This document shows positions 4,717-29,035 of a stretch of 64,000 nt of DNA, one piece after another; positions within the stretch are counted from its first letter, which is position 1, and each line of letters opens with the position of its first letter. The notes below the pieces were generated by a model. It did not search any database, was not told the DNA's origin, and worked only from the letters and a program-made list of their open reading frames with translations. Made by a program: the position numbers and the translations under genes. Source of the stretch: Candidatus Blautia stercorigallinarum (GTDB taxonomy: Bacteria > Bacillota > Clostridia > Lachnospirales > Lachnospiraceae); contig DXIQ01000058.1 in NCBI GenBank assembly GCA_019112785.1, positions 1-64,000 of the forward strand. The letters run 5' to 3'.

Positions 4717-4956
4717 ATTTCATAAAAAGTGAAGAAGAGAGGGAAAAAGAACAAGAAAATGGTATAATCAGATTAATGAAGAAGTTTTGATACACATAAG
4801 TAAAAAAAGTATCTCTAAGGCTGTAGATTTCCGAAAAAGTCAGGATATATGGACAGGACATTTTATGTCCGGCAGATTTTTCCTCATTTCTCCTTTTATG
4901 TCCTGGTCTTTTGAATCACAGCTATGTATTCTGGAAGTAGAAAGGGGGCGACGGAC

Positions 4957-5655
4957 ATGGATATGAAAAAAATCGGAGGATTTCTGAAACTCCTCCGAAA
5001 AGAGAGGGGACTTACCCAGGAGCAGGCCGGGGAGATTTTTATGGTAGCGGGACGGACGATCTCCCGCTGGGAAAACGGCGTGAATATGCCGGATTTAAGC
5101 CTGTTGATCCAGATTGCAGAATACTATGATGTAGAACTTGAAGAAATCCTGAACGGAGAAAGGAGAAATGAGGATATGGATAAGAAGCTGAAAAATACTC
5201 TATTGAAGGCAGCGGATTACAGTGAACTGGAAAAAAAACAGAAAGCAAAGGCAGGGAATGTGGCGTTTATGGTGATGTTTTTTACCTGTGTTATAGGGAT
5301 CCTGCTACAGATAGCCTTAACTTCCGATATAAAAATTGTTATGGGAGAAACTGCAGCAGTTATTGTTGGAGGAATCGCATATATTTCACTGCTCCTATAT
5401 AATGGGCTGTGGGAGAGCAGAGCCGGGAAAAAGAGAGCCTGGTTTTCAGATCTGGTGATCAGTATATTGTGCAGCGGCGTTTTTTCGGTTTTATATGGCT
5501 TCTGTATACTGAGAATGGGAGCAGATAAAATCCGGGCAATACAGTTAGGTACAGGCTTCTTTTTGGGAATTACGATCATCGGTTTTCTGATCCTGAGAGG
5601 ACTAGCCTGGATTAATAAAAAGCAGAGAAACAGGAGAGAGAAGGTGGATTTATGA
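4957..5655 (+). CDS. XRE-family HTH regulator with C-terminal transmembrane segments
   Basis: LKLLRKERGLTQEQAGEIFMVAGRTISRWENGVNMPDLSLL, then hydrophobic segments; ATG 4957 after aaaggggg RBS. Confidence 0.88.
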   Translation: MDMKKIGGFLKLLRKERGLTQEQAGEIFMVAGRTISRWENGVNMPDLSLLIQIAEYYDVELEEILNGERRNEDMDKKLKNTLLKAADYSELEKKQKAKAGNVAFMVMFFTCVIGILLQIALTSDIKIVMGETAAVIVGGIAYISLLLYNGLWESRAGKKRAWFSDLVISILCSGVFSVLYGFCILRMGADKIRAIQLGTGFFLGITIIGFLILRGLAWINKKQRNRREKVDL

Positions 5656-6041
5656 TCTATGAGGAAGAAAGCGATTATATCATGCGTATGATCAAAGAAG
5701 CGGCCAGGGTATTATTTTCGCTGATTTTTGGAAAAAAGTATACCCAGGTAGAACTGCCAAAGGAGAATAAGTTTTCTGTTTCAGGAAGCAATCTGGATGA
5801 TCTTACGGGATTGGTAGACCAGGGGAAGATCAATGAAGCAGAAAATATTCTTTTGGAAAATCTGGATCATGAGAATCCCGAGGAACTGGCGGCGGCCGTT
5901 TTATTTTATGAATATGTAAGTGAGAAAGGCCGGGAATTTTTGGAGGCCCATGATTATTCCCTGGAGGAAGCGGCAGAGGGAATGAAGCAGATCGCAGAGT
6001 ATGCCGGGTATGGGGCACTTCTGGAGGAAATGGATCTGTAA
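5652..6041 (+). CDS. DUF6483-like hypothetical protein
   Basis: MIYEEESDYIMRMIKEAARVLFSLIFGKK...; overlaps upstream stop by 4 nt. Confidence 0.6.
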   Translation: MIYEEESDYIMRMIKEAARVLFSLIFGKKYTQVELPKENKFSVSGSNLDDLTGLVDQGKINEAENILLENLDHENPEELAAAVLFYEYVSEKGREFLEAHDYSLEEAAEGMKQIAEYAGYGALLEEMDL

Positions 6042-6069
6042 AATCAAGGCGGAGACAGGATAAAACAGA

Positions 6070-6126
6070 TTGACATTATCGATATTCGATGTTATAGTGA
6101 AATCAGAAGAATATTGATATTCGATA
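6070..6126 (+). promoter_or_regulatory. Promoter with candidate PadR operator (two ATCGA-TAT-TCGAT-like boxes around the -10)
   Basis: TTGACA (6070-6075), 17 bp, TATAGT (6093-6098); TATCGATATTCGAT 6077-6090 and ATTGATATTCGATA 6113-6126. Confidence 0.75.
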
Positions 6127-6140
6127 AAAGGAGCGATGCT

Positions 6141-6476
6141 ATGGCCAGAGCAAAGTTTCAGACTTTAACGGAACAGATGTTTTATATCCTTCTCTGCCTC
6201 AGGCAGGAATGTTGCGGTATGGATATTATGGAGAAGGTCCGCGTGATGACAGAAGGCAGGGTAAATATAGGACCGGGAACCCTTTATAATCTTCTGGACC
6301 AGTTTTCCCAGGCAGAAATGATCGTAGAGACAAAAGTGGAGGGAAGAAGAAAAAGTTATATTCTTACAGAGATAGGGAAAGAGGCACTTCGGGCAGAGTA
6401 TGAGAGGATATGCGGTCAGGCGGCAGACTACCGCCGTTATATGGAGGTGCAGGAAAATGAGAAGGGGGAAGCTTGA
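6141..6476 (+). CDS. PadR-family transcriptional regulator
   Basis: MARAKFQTLTEQMFYILLCLRQECCGMDIMEKVR...NIGPGTLYNLLDQF...GRRKSYILTEIGKEAL. Confidence 0.94.
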   Translation: MARAKFQTLTEQMFYILLCLRQECCGMDIMEKVRVMTEGRVNIGPGTLYNLLDQFSQAEMIVETKVEGRRKSYILTEIGKEALRAEYERICGQAADYRRYMEVQENEKGEA

Positions 6477-20298: not shown

Positions 20299-21672
20299 AT
20301 GGTAAAAATCTATGTTATCGACACCAATGTTCTGATCCAGAATCCTCAGGCTCTGCTGAGTTTTGAAGATAATCAGGTGATCCTTCCGGTGGTAGTGCTG
20401 GAAGAACTGGATAACCTGAAGAAAGCAGAAGGAGAGAAAGGAAGAAATGCCAGAGCAGCCATACGGATCCTGGAAGAGCTTCGCCTGAAGGGAAATCTTC
20501 TGGAAGGGATCCGGCTGGAACCTCATGGAATGATCCGGGTGGAGAAGAATTACATAGATGTAAAGCTTCCTGAAGATCTGCCGGAAGACAAGATGGATAA
20601 CCGGATCTTAAAGGTCTGCAAAGGATTGGCAGAGTCCTCCAGTCAGCAGGTGATCCTGGTGACAAAAGATATCCTTCTTAGGATCAAAGCACAGATCATA
20701 GGGATCCGGGCGGAAGATTATACTACAGAGCAGGTGGCAGAATATGAAGGGCAGTATAAGGGAAGAATTGAAGTATACGTGCCGGAAGAAAAGTTTAAGG
20801 ATTTCAAGAAAAAAGGCGTTCCGGTAGAGGACGTTTACCTTTCCGATGAACAGGGAAACCGGAAAGTACCGAAACTGGAGGAAAACGAGTTTGTGATCCT
20901 GAAAGCAGATCAGTCTGCCAAAAAGACCCAGCTGGGAAGAGTGGAAAAAGGAATGATAAAGAAACTGGAATACCGGAAAAGTATCCCCTACGGAGTGACT
21001 CCCAGAAACGCCGGTCAGTATTTTGCCCAGGAGGCTCTTATGCAGCCTGCGGACAAAGCGCCTCTGGTGATCATCAAAGGAATGGCAGGCACCAGCAAGA
21101 CTTTTTATACCCTGGCGGTAGGTTTGGAAAAGGTGTTGAATAATCCTACAGGAGAATACAGGAGGATCCTGATCTCCAGGCCAAATGCCCAGTTTGATTC
21201 GGATATCGGCTTTCTCCCGGGAGATGAACAGGAAAAGATCTCTCCCCTTATGCGGCCGATTATTGACAATCTGGAACAGCTGATCGACTCCAATGAGGAG
21301 GAACGATATAAGGATGAAATGGAGCTTCAGGGAAAAATAGATGAGATTTTCGAGAGAGGGATGATCCAGACAGAAGCTTTGAATTATATCCGGGGCCGTT
21401 CTATTGTAAAGACCTATCTGATCATTGACGAAGCCCAGAATATGACTCCCAATCAGGTAAAAGGGATCATTACCAGAGCTGGAAAAGGCACGAAGATCAT
21501 CCTTCTTGGGGATACCAATCAGATCGACCGTCCTATGCTGGATGAAAGGACCAACGGGCTCAGTTTTGCCGCTGAATATATGAAGGGCAGTCCTCTCTGC
21601 TGGCAGGTCACCTTCTCCCCCGAGGAGTGCGAGCGCTCGGCCCTTGCCATGGACGCTATTACGAGACTATAA
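20299..21672 (+). CDS. PIN domain plus PhoH-like ATPase
   Basis: N-terminal PIN (VIDTNVLIQNPQALLSFEDNQVILPVVVLEELDNLK), PhoH ATPase (VIIKGMAGTSKTF...IIDEAQNMTPNQVKGIITRAGKGTKIILLGDTNQID). Confidence 0.94.
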   Translation: MVKIYVIDTNVLIQNPQALLSFEDNQVILPVVVLEELDNLKKAEGEKGRNARAAIRILEELRLKGNLLEGIRLEPHGMIRVEKNYIDVKLPEDLPEDKMDNRILKVCKGLAESSSQQVILVTKDILLRIKAQIIGIRAEDYTTEQVAEYEGQYKGRIEVYVPEEKFKDFKKKGVPVEDVYLSDEQGNRKVPKLEENEFVILKADQSAKKTQLGRVEKGMIKKLEYRKSIPYGVTPRNAGQYFAQEALMQPADKAPLVIIKGMAGTSKTFYTLAVGLEKVLNNPTGEYRRILISRPNAQFDSDIGFLPGDEQEKISPLMRPIIDNLEQLIDSNEEERYKDEMELQGKIDEIFERGMIQTEALNYIRGRSIVKTYLIIDEAQNMTPNQVKGIITRAGKGTKIILLGDTNQIDRPMLDERTNGLSFAAEYMKGSPLCWQVTFSPEECERSALAMDAITRL

Positions 21673-24738: not shown

Positions 24739-26229
24739 GTGAAATCTGTGAATTTTGATATATCCCAATTTGACTCTTACCGTGAGGATAACCGCCGCGA
24801 AGCCAAAAAAGCCAAAGACGGACTTCCAAATTCATTATGGGAGACATACTCGGCTTTTGCTAACTGTTATGGAGGAGTCATTATCCTTGGTGTAAAAGAA
24901 AATAAGGACGGAAGCTGGTATATGACCGGACTGGAAAATCCGGCAAAACTGCGAAAAGATTTCTGGGATACGATTAATAATAAAAATAAGGTTTCGGTAA
25001 ATCTGTTGACGGATAATGATTTGGAGATATTTGAAGAAAGTAACGGTATCATAATGGTTGTCCATGTTCCTAAGGCAAAGCGTGAACAGAAGCCCGTATA
25101 TATAAACGGAGATATGTTTAGTGGAACTTTCCGCAGAAACTGGGAGGGTGATTATCACTGTGACCGCAGCGAGGTGCTGGCAATGCTCCGTGATCAGCCG
25201 GAAGAAACCGCAGATATGAAAATTTTACAGGATATGTCTCTTGAAGTACTCAATTCAGAGACTGTGCATGCCTACCGCAACCGGCATATGGCATATCGAA
25301 CAGAACATGTATGGGAAAGGCTGAGTGATGAAGAATATTTAGAGCGGATAGGCGCTGCAAAGCTGTCTGTCAGAGATTATACTTTGCACCCTACAGCTGC
25401 CGGACTTCTTATGTTTGGAGAAGAATATAAGATTTTATATGAATTCCCTGAATATTTTCTGGACTACCGGGAAGTTCTCGATCCGACAATACGATGGACG
25501 GATAGGCTGCAGTCAAGTTCCGGTGACTGGACGGGGAACTTATTTGATTTTTTCTTCCGGGTTTATGGAAAACTTGTGAAGGATCTGAAAATTCCTTTTA
25601 AGCTGGAGGGAATAACCCGCATAGATGATACGCCTGTACACAAGGCATTGAGGGAAGCCCTGGCGAACTGTCTGGTAAATACCGATTTTTATTTCCCAAG
25701 AGGGATTGTGATCCGTAAAGACGCAGAATCTATCATAATGGAGAATCCGGGAAGCATTCGGACTGGTAAAGCCCAGATGCTGAAAGGCGGCATATCAGAT
25801 CCCCGAAATAAAGCTTTGATGAAAATGTTCAATCTGATCGGTATTGGTGAGAGAGCCGGCAGCGGTGTGCCGGATATTTACAGCGTGTGGGAACAACAGG
25901 GATGGAGACAGCCGGAGGTTATAGAAGAGTATGGTCCAGACAGAACTATTTTGAAATTATCATTATTAAAAAAAGCGGCGATAAAAAATGGCGATAAAAA
26001 AGTAGCGATAAAAAGTGGCGATAAAAAGAAAATAACCAAAAAGACGGAACAGCAGTTGAAATATATTCTGGAATATATGGTACCTGATCAAGAATATAAA
26101 ACAAGTGAAATAGCAGAAGTTCTTGGCGTGAAGGAGTCAAGGGCAAGAGCTCTTGTATATGAACTTGCAAAATCAGGTAGGATAGAAGCAGAAGGAAAAA
26201 ATAAAGGACGCAGATATAGATTGAAGTAG
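24739..26229 (+). CDS. ATP-binding / AlbA_2 (Schlafen-like) domain protein with C-terminal winged helix
   Basis: EDNRREAKKAKDGLPNSLWETYSAFANCYGGVIILGVKE...VHKALREALANCLVNTDFYFPRGIVIRKDAESIIMENPGSIRTG...; start may instead be GTG 24748. Confidence 0.88.
   Translation: MKSVNFDISQFDSYREDNRREAKKAKDGLPNSLWETYSAFANCYGGVIILGVKENKDGSWYMTGLENPAKLRKDFWDTINNKNKVSVNLLTDNDLEIFEESNGIIMVVHVPKAKREQKPVYINGDMFSGTFRRNWEGDYHCDRSEVLAMLRDQPEETADMKILQDMSLEVLNSETVHAYRNRHMAYRTEHVWERLSDEEYLERIGAAKLSVRDYTLHPTAAGLLMFGEEYKILYEFPEYFLDYREVLDPTIRWTDRLQSSSGDWTGNLFDFFFRVYGKLVKDLKIPFKLEGITRIDDTPVHKALREALANCLVNTDFYFPRGIVIRKDAESIIMENPGSIRTGKAQMLKGGISDPRNKALMKMFNLIGIGERAGSGVPDIYSVWEQQGWRQPEVIEEYGPDRTILKLSLLKKAAIKNGDKKVAIKSGDKKKITKKTEQQLKYILEYMVPDQEYKTSEIAEVLGVKESRARALVYELAKSGRIEAEGKNKGRRYRLK
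25975..26028 (+). repeat. 27-bp tandem repeat (2 copies) inside the AlbA_2-domain gene, encoding AAIKNGDKK / VAIKSGDKK
   Basis: gcggcgataaaaaatggcgataaaaaa / gtagcgataaaaagtggcgataaaaag. Confidence 0.85.
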
Positions 26230-26250: not shown

Positions 26251-26310
26251 TCGACAGATCCCCCTTTCTGTGCTATGATTATATTTACACGATCATAGAA
26301 CAGAAAGGGG
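26251..26310 (+). promoter_or_regulatory. Promoter and large inverted repeat overlapping -10 and RBS of the Tet(M)-like gene
   Basis: TCGACA-17-TATGAT (26251..26279); CCCCTTTCTGTgCTATGAT 26261-26279 versus ATCATAGaACAGAAAGGGG 26292-26310 (18/19 paired). Confidence 0.75.
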
Positions 26311-26317
26311 TATTTTC

Positions 26318-29035
26318 ATGGAAAATACGTCTGAAAATAGACAGAAAAATCAGGTTTTAAAGCCTTCAAAGCATATCAATATCGGCCTTCTGGCCCATGT
26401 GGACGCAGGCAAGACCACTTTGGCGGAAAGCCTTTTGTATCATACGGGAAGCATCCGGAAGATGGGAAGAGTAGACCATCAGGACGCCTTTTTGGATACC
26501 AATGAAATGGAGCGGGCCAGAGGGATCACTATTTTTTCAAAGCAGGCGGTTTTTGATCTGAAGGATAAGGAGATCACTTTGTTGGATACCCCGGGACATG
26601 TGGATTTTTCTGCGGAAATGGAGCGTACCCTTCAGGTGCTGGACTACGGGATCCTGATCATCAGCGGCCCCGACGGGGTACAGGGACATGTGGAGACTCT
26701 CTGGAGGCTTTTAAATCAGTATCATATCCCTACGATACTTTTTGTAAACAAAATGGATCAGGAGGGAACAGAAAAGAAGAAAATACTGGGCCAGTTAAGG
26801 AAGCGTCTTCACGAACATTGTATAGATTTTTCCCAGGACAGAGAACGGGAAGAGTTTCTGGAGGAGACCGCCATGTGCGGGGAACCGGCTCTGGAAGAAT
26901 ATCTGGAGACAGGAAATATTTCTCAGAAAAAACTCAGGGATATGGTAAAAAACAGGGAGCTGTTTCCCTGCTTTTTCGGTTCAGCCCTGAAATCCCAGGG
27001 GATCACAGAATTTTTAAAGGGCTTGGAAGAGCTTCTGGAATGTCCCTCCTATCCTGAAACCTTCGGTGCTAAGGTCTATAAGATTTCCAGAGACGATAAA
27101 GGGACCCGGCTGACTCACATGAAGATCACCGGAGGAAGTCTGAAGGTAAAACAGTTGATCACAGGAGAAGGGTGGGAGGAAAAAGCAGATCAGATCCGTA
27201 TCTATGACGGCCAGAGTTTTCAGACCGTGGAAGAGGCCGGGGCCGGTTGTGTCTGTGCAGTTACGGGTCTTACGAAAACCTGGTCGGGAGAAGGCCTTGG
27301 GGAAGAACCGGTTTCTGCACCTCCGGTGCTGACTCCGGTGCTGACCTATGAGATCAGACTTCCCCAGGGCACAGACGTTCATGGAATGCTGATAAAATTA
27401 CGGCAGCTGGAGGAGGAGATTCCGGAACTTCAGATCCTCTGGAATGAACAGCTGGGAGAGATCCATGCTCAGGTTATGGGGGAAGTGCAGATTGAGATCC
27501 TGAAACAGATGATCCTGGAGCGTTTTGGCATAGAAGTGGAATTTGGCTCCGGGAATATTGTATACAAAGAAACCATCAAAGAACCGGTAGAAGGGATCGG
27601 ACATTTTGAGCCGCTCCGCCATTATGCGGAGGTGCACCTTTTGCTGGAGCCCTTAGAGAGGGGAGCAGGGCTGGTTTTTGCCGCGGACTGCAGCGAGGAT
27701 ATTCTGGACCGGAACTGGCAGAGACTGATCCTCACCCATCTGGAGGAGAAACATCATCTGGGCGTCCTTACAGGATCTGAAATTACAGATATGAAGATCA
27801 CCTTGATTGCCGGAAGGGCTCATCTGAAACATACAGAAGGGGGAGATTTCCGTCAGGCAACCTACCGGGCAGTGCGGCAGGGGCTGAGAAAAGCGGAAAG
27901 TATCCTTCTGGAGCCGGTATACGAATATTCCCTGGAGGTACCCCAGGATGCAGTGGGAAGGGCTATGGCTGACATCCAGCGGATGAGTGGAACCTTTTCC
28001 ACTCCGGATATCCAGGGAGAATATGCCTTTCTCACAGGAACCGCCCCGGTATCCGAGATGCGGGATTATCAGAGAGAGGTCACAGCCTATACCAGGGGAA
28101 GAGGCCATCTGTCCTTTGTCCTGAAAGGTTATGAACCCTGTCATAACAGTCAGGAGATTATAGAGGCGGCGGCTTATGATCCGGAAGGAGATCTGGAAAA
28201 TCCCACAGGTTCTGTTTTCTGCTCTCACGGAGCAGGCTTTAACGTGCCATGGGACCAGGTAGAGGAGTATGCCCATATTGATACCGGATTCGGAAAGGAA
28301 GAGGAGCCGGAAATGGAGATCCAGTCGGTGCCGGTTCCCAGTTTTGAAGAGATCCGTCTGACCCAGCAGGAGCTGGAGGAGATTTTTGTCCGTACTTACG
28401 GCCCTATAAAGCGGCCAAGGTATAATCAGGAAGAGGACTTTGCAGTAAAGAAAACTCCGGAAAAGACCAGAAGATATAAAAAGCAGGAGCCGGAGAAAGA
28501 ATACCTTCTGGTAGACGGATATAATATTATTTTTGCCTGGGAGGACCTTCAGGAGCTGGCTAAAGTGAATATTGAAGGAGCCAGAAACAAACTGATGGAC
28601 ATGCTCTGCAATTACCAGGGCTACAAAAAATGCACTTTGATCCTGGTTTTTGATGCTTATAAGGTGGAAGGGAATCAGGGGGAGGTTCAGAAATATCACA
28701 ATATTTATGTGGTTTATACAAAAGAAGCGGAAACTGCCGATCAGTATATTGAAAAGACCGTCCATGAGATCGGAAGGAAGTATCATGTAACCGTAGCCAC
28801 CTCTGACGCTTTAGAGCAGGTGATCATTATGGGACAGGGAGCGGCCAGACTTTCTGCCAGAAACCTTCGGGAAGAGATCCAGATGATGAACCGGGAGATC
28901 CGGAACCATTATCTGGAAAAAACAAAGAAAAGCGGCAGTTATCTTTTTGAGAGCCTTCCGGAACATATGACGGACTTTATGGAGGACGTCCGTCTGGGAA
29001 GAAAAAATTTTGAGGATTTAGAGAAAAAGTCTTGA
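26318..29035 (+). CDS. Tet(M)/EF-G-like translation GTPase fused to C-terminal NYN/YacP (Rae1)-like domain
   Basis: NIGLLAHVDAGKTTLAESLLYHTG...ERARGITIFSKQAVF...LLDTPGHVDFSAEMERTLQVLDY; C-terminal YLLVDGYNIIFAWEDLQELAKVNIEGARNKLMDMLCNYQGYKKCTLILVFDAYKVEGN...TADQYIEKTVHEI...VTVATSDALEQVIIMGQGA. Confidence 0.92.
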   Translation: MENTSENRQKNQVLKPSKHINIGLLAHVDAGKTTLAESLLYHTGSIRKMGRVDHQDAFLDTNEMERARGITIFSKQAVFDLKDKEITLLDTPGHVDFSAEMERTLQVLDYGILIISGPDGVQGHVETLWRLLNQYHIPTILFVNKMDQEGTEKKKILGQLRKRLHEHCIDFSQDREREEFLEETAMCGEPALEEYLETGNISQKKLRDMVKNRELFPCFFGSALKSQGITEFLKGLEELLECPSYPETFGAKVYKISRDDKGTRLTHMKITGGSLKVKQLITGEGWEEKADQIRIYDGQSFQTVEEAGAGCVCAVTGLTKTWSGEGLGEEPVSAPPVLTPVLTYEIRLPQGTDVHGMLIKLRQLEEEIPELQILWNEQLGEIHAQVMGEVQIEILKQMILERFGIEVEFGSGNIVYKETIKEPVEGIGHFEPLRHYAEVHLLLEPLERGAGLVFAADCSEDILDRNWQRLILTHLEEKHHLGVLTGSEITDMKITLIAGRAHLKHTEGGDFRQATYRAVRQGLRKAESILLEPVYEYSLEVPQDAVGRAMADIQRMSGTFSTPDIQGEYAFLTGTAPVSEMRDYQREVTAYTRGRGHLSFVLKGYEPCHNSQEIIEAAAYDPEGDLENPTGSVFCSHGAGFNVPWDQVEEYAHIDTGFGKEEEPEMEIQSVPVPSFEEIRLTQQELEEIFVRTYGPIKRPRYNQEEDFAVKKTPEKTRRYKKQEPEKEYLLVDGYNIIFAWEDLQELAKVNIEGARNKLMDMLCNYQGYKKCTLILVFDAYKVEGNQGEVQKYHNIYVVYTKEAETADQYIEKTVHEIGRKYHVTVATSDALEQVIIMGQGAARLSARNLREEIQMMNREIRNHYLEKTKKSGSYLFESLPEHMTDFMEDVRLGRKNFEDLEKKS

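Follow-up and report, generated by a model that had tools for sequence, protein, structure and literature searches.

A Rae1-type nuclease fused to an EF-G-like GTPase appears to have repeatedly replaced free Rae1 in Clostridia

Introduction

The window analyzed here, a stretch of 64,000 nucleotides of contig DXIQ01000058.1 of Candidatus Blautia stercorigallinarum, contains a gene that joins, in a single reading frame, a translational GTPase and an NYN nuclease domain related to YacP (Rae1) of Bacillus subtilis. This locus raises the question of whether such a protein is a tetracycline resistance determinant, as its GTPase would suggest, or an enzyme of ribosome rescue or quality control, as its nuclease would suggest.

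The fusion architecture as such is already known. Atkinson 2015 (PMC4342817) described the acquisition of a YacP-like NYN RNase domain by Tet proteins in ten species of clostridia and proposed for these clostridial fusions an rRNA RNase activity in resistance. The architecture of those proteins is the same as that of the window protein, which adds a further member; it was described, as a Tet protein, before the function of Rae1 was known. YacP (Rae1) was shown to be a ribosome-dependent mRNA endonuclease in 2017, according to the passages of PMC11780869, PMC6613710 and PMC10632193 that cite this work. Our literature search found no paper besides Atkinson 2015 discussing the fusion; in that study, the fusion was filed as Tet, and a comparison with free YacP or Rae1 and a replacement history are not part of it. 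New in the present analysis are the placement of the GTPase in a clade of its own, outside Tet and without the Tet tip sequences; a single origin of the fusion followed by vertical and horizontal spread; the exclusivity of fused and free YacP in a genome census; and, as the main result, the replacement of free yacP by the fusion at the ancestral locus, with pseudogenes in two genomes.

Domain organization of the fusion protein

The gene is one intact ORF, and its ATG start is preceded by a strong Shine-Dalgarno sequence, AGAAAGGGG. The features of the locus are the following:

26251..26279 (+): promoter-like site TCGACA-17-TATGAT, weak (4 sites in the region versus 3.1 expected)
26318..29035 (+): whole gene, 905 aa; translational GTPase, C-terminal extension, flexible linker and NYN/Rae1 nuclease (homologous one-frame fusions)
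26369..27037 (+): G domain, residues 18-240, with AHVDAGKTT, RGIT, DTPGH (catalytic His94) and NKMD (Pfam; motifs in alignments)
27068..27280 (+): EF-G domain II, residues 251-321 (Pfam 22 bits, below the family cut-off of 27; supported by an EF-G-like model)
27332..27547 (+): EF-G domain III (EFG_III), residues 339-410 (Pfam)
27554..27898 (+): domain IV (EFG_IV, 3.4e-17), residues 413-527 (Pfam; loop comparison)
27905..28150 (+): domain V (EFG_C, 1.9e-18), residues 530-611 (Pfam)
28151..28276 (+): C-terminal extension, residues 612-653, YDxxxDxxNPTGSVFCSHGAGFxVxWDxVxxYxH (alignment, loop comparison)
28277..28498 (+): flexible linker, residues 654-727 (AlphaFold pLDDT below 50 at 661-725)
28343..28399 (+): predicted linker helix, residues 676-694, with the conserved motif ELEEIFVRTYG (alignment; AlphaFold)
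28505..28993 (+): NYN_YacP (Rae1) nuclease domain, residues 730-892 (Pfam; PDB 5mq8/5mq9)
28514..28807 (+): four invariant acidic positions, D733, D779, D808 and D830, corresponding to Rae1 D7, D53, D81 and D104 (alignment)

The initial annotation had described a single 905-aa frame holding a GTPase and, from about nucleotide 28502, an NYN domain. The Pfam domains and hundreds of one-frame homologues bear this out, and the Pfam NYN match begins at nucleotide 28505. An assembly chimera or a chance ORF is ruled out by the presence of the same one-frame fusion in hundreds of independent genomes. The nearest named record, from Candidatus Blautia avicola, matches at 94% over residues 1-612.

The GTPase part (GTP_EFTU match at residues 18-240, E 2.6e-52) belongs to the EF-G superfamily, with domains I, III, IV and V in order and the P-loop, RGIT, DTPGH and NKMD motifs present; its sequence matches are to EF-G, TetO and TetM. 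The C-terminal part scores 184.8 bits against the NYN_YacP profile (cut-off 24.6; E 1.6e-54) and matches the crystal structures of B. subtilis YacP/Rae1 by sequence with E about 1e-27. Like Rae1, the fusion contains a full NYN domain with all four acidic residues, but Rae1 stands alone, with a length of about 170 aa, whereas the NYN domain of the fusion is tethered behind a five-domain GTPase. An AlphaFold model built on 26 homologues (mean pLDDT 79.8) consists of a well-folded EF-G-like body and NYN domain connected by a disordered linker (residues 661-725) with one helix. In a Foldseek search with this model, all of the matches listed were EF-G or EF-2 (EF-G, E 3e-53), so that the assignment of the NYN fold comes from the sequence matches and the model.

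The C-terminal extension is common to the fused GTPases and most of their solo relatives, that is, GTPases of the same clade that lack the nuclease, and is absent from Tet and EF-G in this form. The linker varies in length among homologues (66-205 aa), and the motif E[LI]xxI[FIM]xxT[YF] of its helix, searched as a regular expression, is found in 40 of 55 fusions compared with 0.4 expected in shuffles. This helix lacks a counterpart in the solo GTPases, which stop before its position.

No conserved operon partner was found in the window. The MerR gene downstream of the fusion is shared solely within the genus, and the Schlafen/AlbA_2 gene with a helicase-C-like region located immediately upstream (24739-26229) adjoins the fusion in only one relative (L005) among the relatives' loci searched. 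Promoter and terminator scans around the fusion gene gave results at chance level. The window also encodes, at 20299-21672, a PIN-PhoH protein (PIN_4 and PhoH ATPase), a putative RNA enzyme of an ordinary family, with no link to the fusion shown.

Relationship to Tet proteins and EF-G

The initial annotation called the GTPase Tet(M)-like, which holds for its structural kinship, the EF-G/Tet fold, and fails for membership in the Tet class. Identity to Tet is about 30%, the score against the NCBIfam tet_protect model is 423 bits with a cut-off of 775, and in the trees the fused and solo GTPases are separated from the Tet-type proteins of the same genomes as 100/100 clades. The tip of domain IV differs as well: the Tet loop III YYSPVSTPADF is replaced in the clade GTPases by an invariant KHT-GGDF, leaving no YSPVSTP motif, and VPPNPFWAS of Tet by GHFEPLRHYAE. 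In the fusion, the tip sequences are GHFEPLRHYAEV and HLKHTEGGDFR, unlike those of both Tet and EF-G. By score, tree and loops, the gene is not a bona fide member of the Tet(M) class of resistance genes. The fusion shares with Tet(M)/Tet(O) the EF-G domain order and GTPase fold, a C-terminal extension, and presumably the same ribosomal site, but it forms a separate clade, is encoded by a chromosomal core gene, carries the added NYN domain, and has an extension that differs from, and is longer than, that of Tet(M)/Tet(O).

Could the fusion nevertheless be, as implied by database names and by Atkinson 2015, a protein that protects the ribosome against tetracycline, or another A-site antibiotic, while also carrying an RNase? 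The fold and the best structural kin (EF-G and TetO/TetM) speak for it, RefSeq assigns the Agathobacter rectalis homologue to the TetM/TetW/TetO/TetS family, and the clade loop III is equal in length to that of Tet. The Tet(M) triple mutant S508A P509A V510A keeps its activity (PMC4750697), so that the replacement of the loop weakens, rather than excludes, a tetracycline effect. Against this reading stand the separate clade, the low score and the replaced motifs, to which the gene content adds that the fusion is a ubiquitous core gene in single copy per genome and that Tet-type genes with the true YYSPVSTPADF motif coexist with it as separate genes in three genomes (G008, G053 and G303). Judged on these sequence features, tetracycline resistance conferred by the fusion is unlikely, and a protection protein with an RNase attached is a very improbable description of it.

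Origin and spread of the fusion

In the tree, all fused GTPases form one clade with 100/100 support (100 in a larger quick tree), and the solo GTPases form a paraphyletic grade basal to it. The position of the fusion clade above this grade implies that the solo state is ancestral, and the tree points to a single fusion event; several independent fusions are ruled out by the single 100/100 clade. The lone apparent solo gene within the fused clade (L069) is truncated by the end of its contig. A nested 100/100 clade combines members of families f2, f30, f43, f47 and f70 with a genome of the window's own family (G362), which indicates horizontal transfer.

The solo GTPases (about 650 aa; for example, L071, L042 and L044, which are 45-48% identical to the fusion protein) have fusion-like tip sequences and, in most cases, the C-terminal extension, but neither the linker helix nor the NYN domain, both of which the fusion has. 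They apparently constitute an uncharacterised class of translation factors.

Genes of this clade also occur on plasmids. Ligilactobacillus salivarius megaplasmids (plasmid hits H3-H15) carry a solo clade GTPase that is about 50% identical over residues 11-653, a span that takes in the C-terminal extension; most of these are named TetM/TetW/TetO/TetS in RefSeq. A 252-kb plasmid of A. rectalis, a large second replicon, carries a fused homologue (L237 3983-6784; WP_306784676.1) annotated as a tetracycline ribosomal protection protein. A fused gene is also present in a sequence labelled Bacteriophage sp. (L238 5397-8024; MT835563.1), where the adjacent genes encode bacterial metabolic enzymes (NAD(P)H-hydrate dehydratase, DAP epimerase, aminotransferase); this is probably a mislabelled bacterial contig, and we rejected it as a case of a phage-borne fusion.

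Census of fused, solo and free genes

The census covered 196 Clostridia genomes, with counts partly from draft genomes. YacP was detected in 133 of these, fused with the clade GTPase in a long frame in 74 and as a free protein of 168-216 aa in 59. The clade GTPase was detected in 85 genomes: fused in 74, solo alongside free YacP in six, and solo without YacP in five. None of the 74 genomes with the fusion has a second YacP above the cut-off, compared with a free YacP in 59 of the 122 non-fused genomes (Fisher p = 6e-16, which is nominal since the genomes are related). Within the window's order, to which Robinsoniella, Butyrivibrio and their relatives belong, 352 of 388 good-quality genomes have YacP, nearly always in one copy; on the scale of the phylum, the GTPase is present in 18 of 250 genomes and fused in 16 of those. 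Two genomes (G018, contigs C103 and C124; G363, contigs C10 and C56) contain two GTPase-NYN copies each, resulting from duplication or strain mixture. Some Lachnospiraceae lack the fusion gene altogether, and the gene is thus dispensable.

The solo GTPase and solo YacP co-occur no more often than expected by chance: YacP is present in 6 of 11 genomes with a solo GTPase versus 53 of 111 without the GTPase, and a partnership preceding the fusion is not supported by these counts. The absence of excess co-occurrence, together with the five GTPase-bearing genomes from which YacP is missing entirely (L109-L113; G466, G494, G469, G508 and G612), indicates that the GTPase has a role independent of the nuclease.

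Replacement of free Rae1

Where YacP is free, its gene is mostly located in the array cysS-mrnC-(xthA or thyX)-rlmB-yacP-sigH. In the window genome, yacP is missing from this locus (cysS-mrnC-rlmB-sigH), and rlmB and sigH are 20 bp apart. The locus is likewise present minus yacP in six other genomes with the fusion (G362, G193, G607, G609, G464 and G558). Same-genus pairs differ in this respect, with yacP lost in the fused member and kept in the other (G362 versus G043; G607 versus G533; G609, G464 and G558 versus G492), as does a same-family pair in which G193 has the fusion and the locus minus yacP whereas G115 has free yacP there. In G043, a congener of G362, the GTPase and YacP are encoded by two solo genes; G362 has a single fused gene in their stead. 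In two genomes with the fusion, remnants of yacP with many stops persist between rlmB and sigH (E 3e-43 in G109 and 6e-17 in G464):

L146, about 4866-5209: decaying yacP pseudogene of G109, between rlmB and sigH
L152, about 5930-6287: decaying yacP pseudogene of G464, between rlmB and sigH

One YacP per genome, loss at the locus and the pseudogenes together identify the fusion as standing in for free YacP. Repeated replacement of free Rae1 by the fusion is well supported by this comparison of genomes. Two genomes (G171 and G189) have both an intact fused gene and a free yacP, likely representing an early stage of replacement. As the fusion appears to make free Rae1 dispensable, it very probably performs the job of Rae1. 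The initial annotation had proposed a function in rescue or quality control rather than, or besides, one in tetracycline resistance; since the fusion takes the place of Rae1, a role in mRNA quality control is favoured over tetracycline resistance.

Conservation of the active sites

In the alignment to Rae1, D733, D779, D808 and D830 are invariant in all 64 fused and all 29 free NYN homologues. The initial annotation had named loss of these acidic residues as the outcome that would speak against its proposal, and the reverse is observed. In the GTPase, His94 and the P-loop are at least 97% conserved, and DTPGH and NKMD are invariant or nearly so. This conservation of the GTPase and nuclease motifs indicates that both halves are under selection as enzymes.

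Other features of Rae1 are often lost in the fusions. Arg118 is present in 29 of 29 solo YacP proteins and in 39 of 64 fused NYN domains; the basic C-terminal tail, searched as a regular expression, is present in 27 of 29 and 17 of 56, respectively. In B. subtilis Rae1, the R166P substitution in this tail causes loss of function (PMC6613710). The relaxation of Arg118 and the tail would fit a takeover of ribosome targeting by the GTPase; it could also signal that the nuclease is less active or works differently. A role in docking, either to the ribosome or to some partner, is possible for the linker helix.

Proposed mechanism and alternatives

Cleavage of mRNA by Rae1 takes place in the ribosomal A site and depends on translation (PMC6613710), Tet(M) and EF-G insert domain IV into the A site, and GTP hydrolysis is needed for the release of Tet(M) from the ribosome (PMC8161019). 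Because domain IV and Rae1 would share the A site, simultaneous action is unlikely, and a sequential hand-off would be needed, a step that the initial annotation left out of account. In the model we propose, the GTPase half would dock on ribosomes whose A site is empty or is being supplied slowly, with domain IV in the decoding centre, and GTP hydrolysis would free this half from the ribosome, in the manner of EF-G and Tet(M). Through the long linker, the NYN half would stay at a high local concentration near the ribosome, so that, once domain IV leaves, it could enter the A site or the mRNA entry and cut the mRNA like free Rae1; the truncated mRNA would then be degraded and the ribosome passed on to rescue. 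We infer that the fusion binds ribosomes, that it cuts within the A site, and that stalled ribosomes trigger it. That the fusion cuts mRNA on ribosomes is probable, and its overall description as Rae1 built into a ribosome-binding GTPase, that is, an endonuclease that the GTPase delivers to paused ribosomes, where it cleaves mRNA in the A site, is the account we lean towards. Against this account weigh the chance-level co-occurrence of the solo genes, the few genomes with both fused and free YacP, and the Lachnospiraceae from which the gene is absent. Control of nuclease delivery by the GTPase through a hand-off is a tentative element of this account, to which we give slightly less than even chances.

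The main rival of the proposed hand-off reverses its order: the GTPase would act after the cut, ejecting the NYN domain from the A site, much as RF3 acts with RF1/RF2, or helping to recycle the cut ribosome. EF-G-type GTPases displace A-site ligands (PMC4342817), the requirement of GTP hydrolysis for Tet release (PMC8161019) suits this order too, the tether would couple both steps, and the GTPase also exists alone, so that any blocked A site may be its target. In B. subtilis, however, free Rae1 works with no GTPase partner of this kind, and free YacP occurs in the absence of a clade GTPase in 53 of the 196 Clostridia genomes; we consider this order unlikely. A somewhat less probable reading has the NYN domain maturing or degrading rRNA or tRNA, for instance in ribosome quality control, with the GTPase bringing it to ribosomes or their subunits. 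YacP was first proposed to function in rRNA/tRNA maturation, and Atkinson 2015 suggested an rRNA RNase (PMC4342817); furthermore, free yacP adjoins mrnC (23S maturation) and rlmB (23S methylation). But the one studied member, Rae1, cuts A-site mRNA in a translation-dependent manner (PMC6613710), and outright loss of the gene in several Lachnospiraceae is unexpected of an rRNA maturase.

The two halves might also be independent enzymes that merely share a polypeptide. The solo forms show no excess co-occurrence and the linker is long and variable, as such an arrangement would allow. Yet, once formed, the fusion was retained by almost all descendants and took the place of free yacP on several occasions, the linker helix is conserved, and the targeting features of the NYN domain are relaxed in the fusion only, which makes the absence of any mechanistic coupling quite improbable.

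Implications

Rae1 is one of the few known ribosome-dependent mRNA endonucleases. RelE-type toxins and SmrB represent other cases of ribosome-dependent mRNA cleavage tied to stress or rescue; their folds are unrelated to that of the fusion and they lack a GTPase, and SmrB targets collided ribosomes instead of acting from an EF-G-like factor. The repeated swap of free Rae1 for a form welded to a GTPase points to an EF-G-like factor as a delivery or release machine, and provides a ready experimental system for the recruitment of Rae1 to particular ribosomes. Because fused and solo proteins are often named TetM/TetW/TetO/TetS in RefSeq, they would inflate resistance-gene counts in gut Clostridia. 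The most far-reaching version of the proposed mechanism, which we regard as rather unlikely, is a single-protein, GTP-timed no-go-decay enzyme, in which a GTPase that is neither Tet nor EF-G would sense a vacant or blocked A site and hydrolysis would license the cut by the tethered Rae1; if true, gut Clostridia would have in it a dominant route of ribosome rescue or mRNA surveillance.
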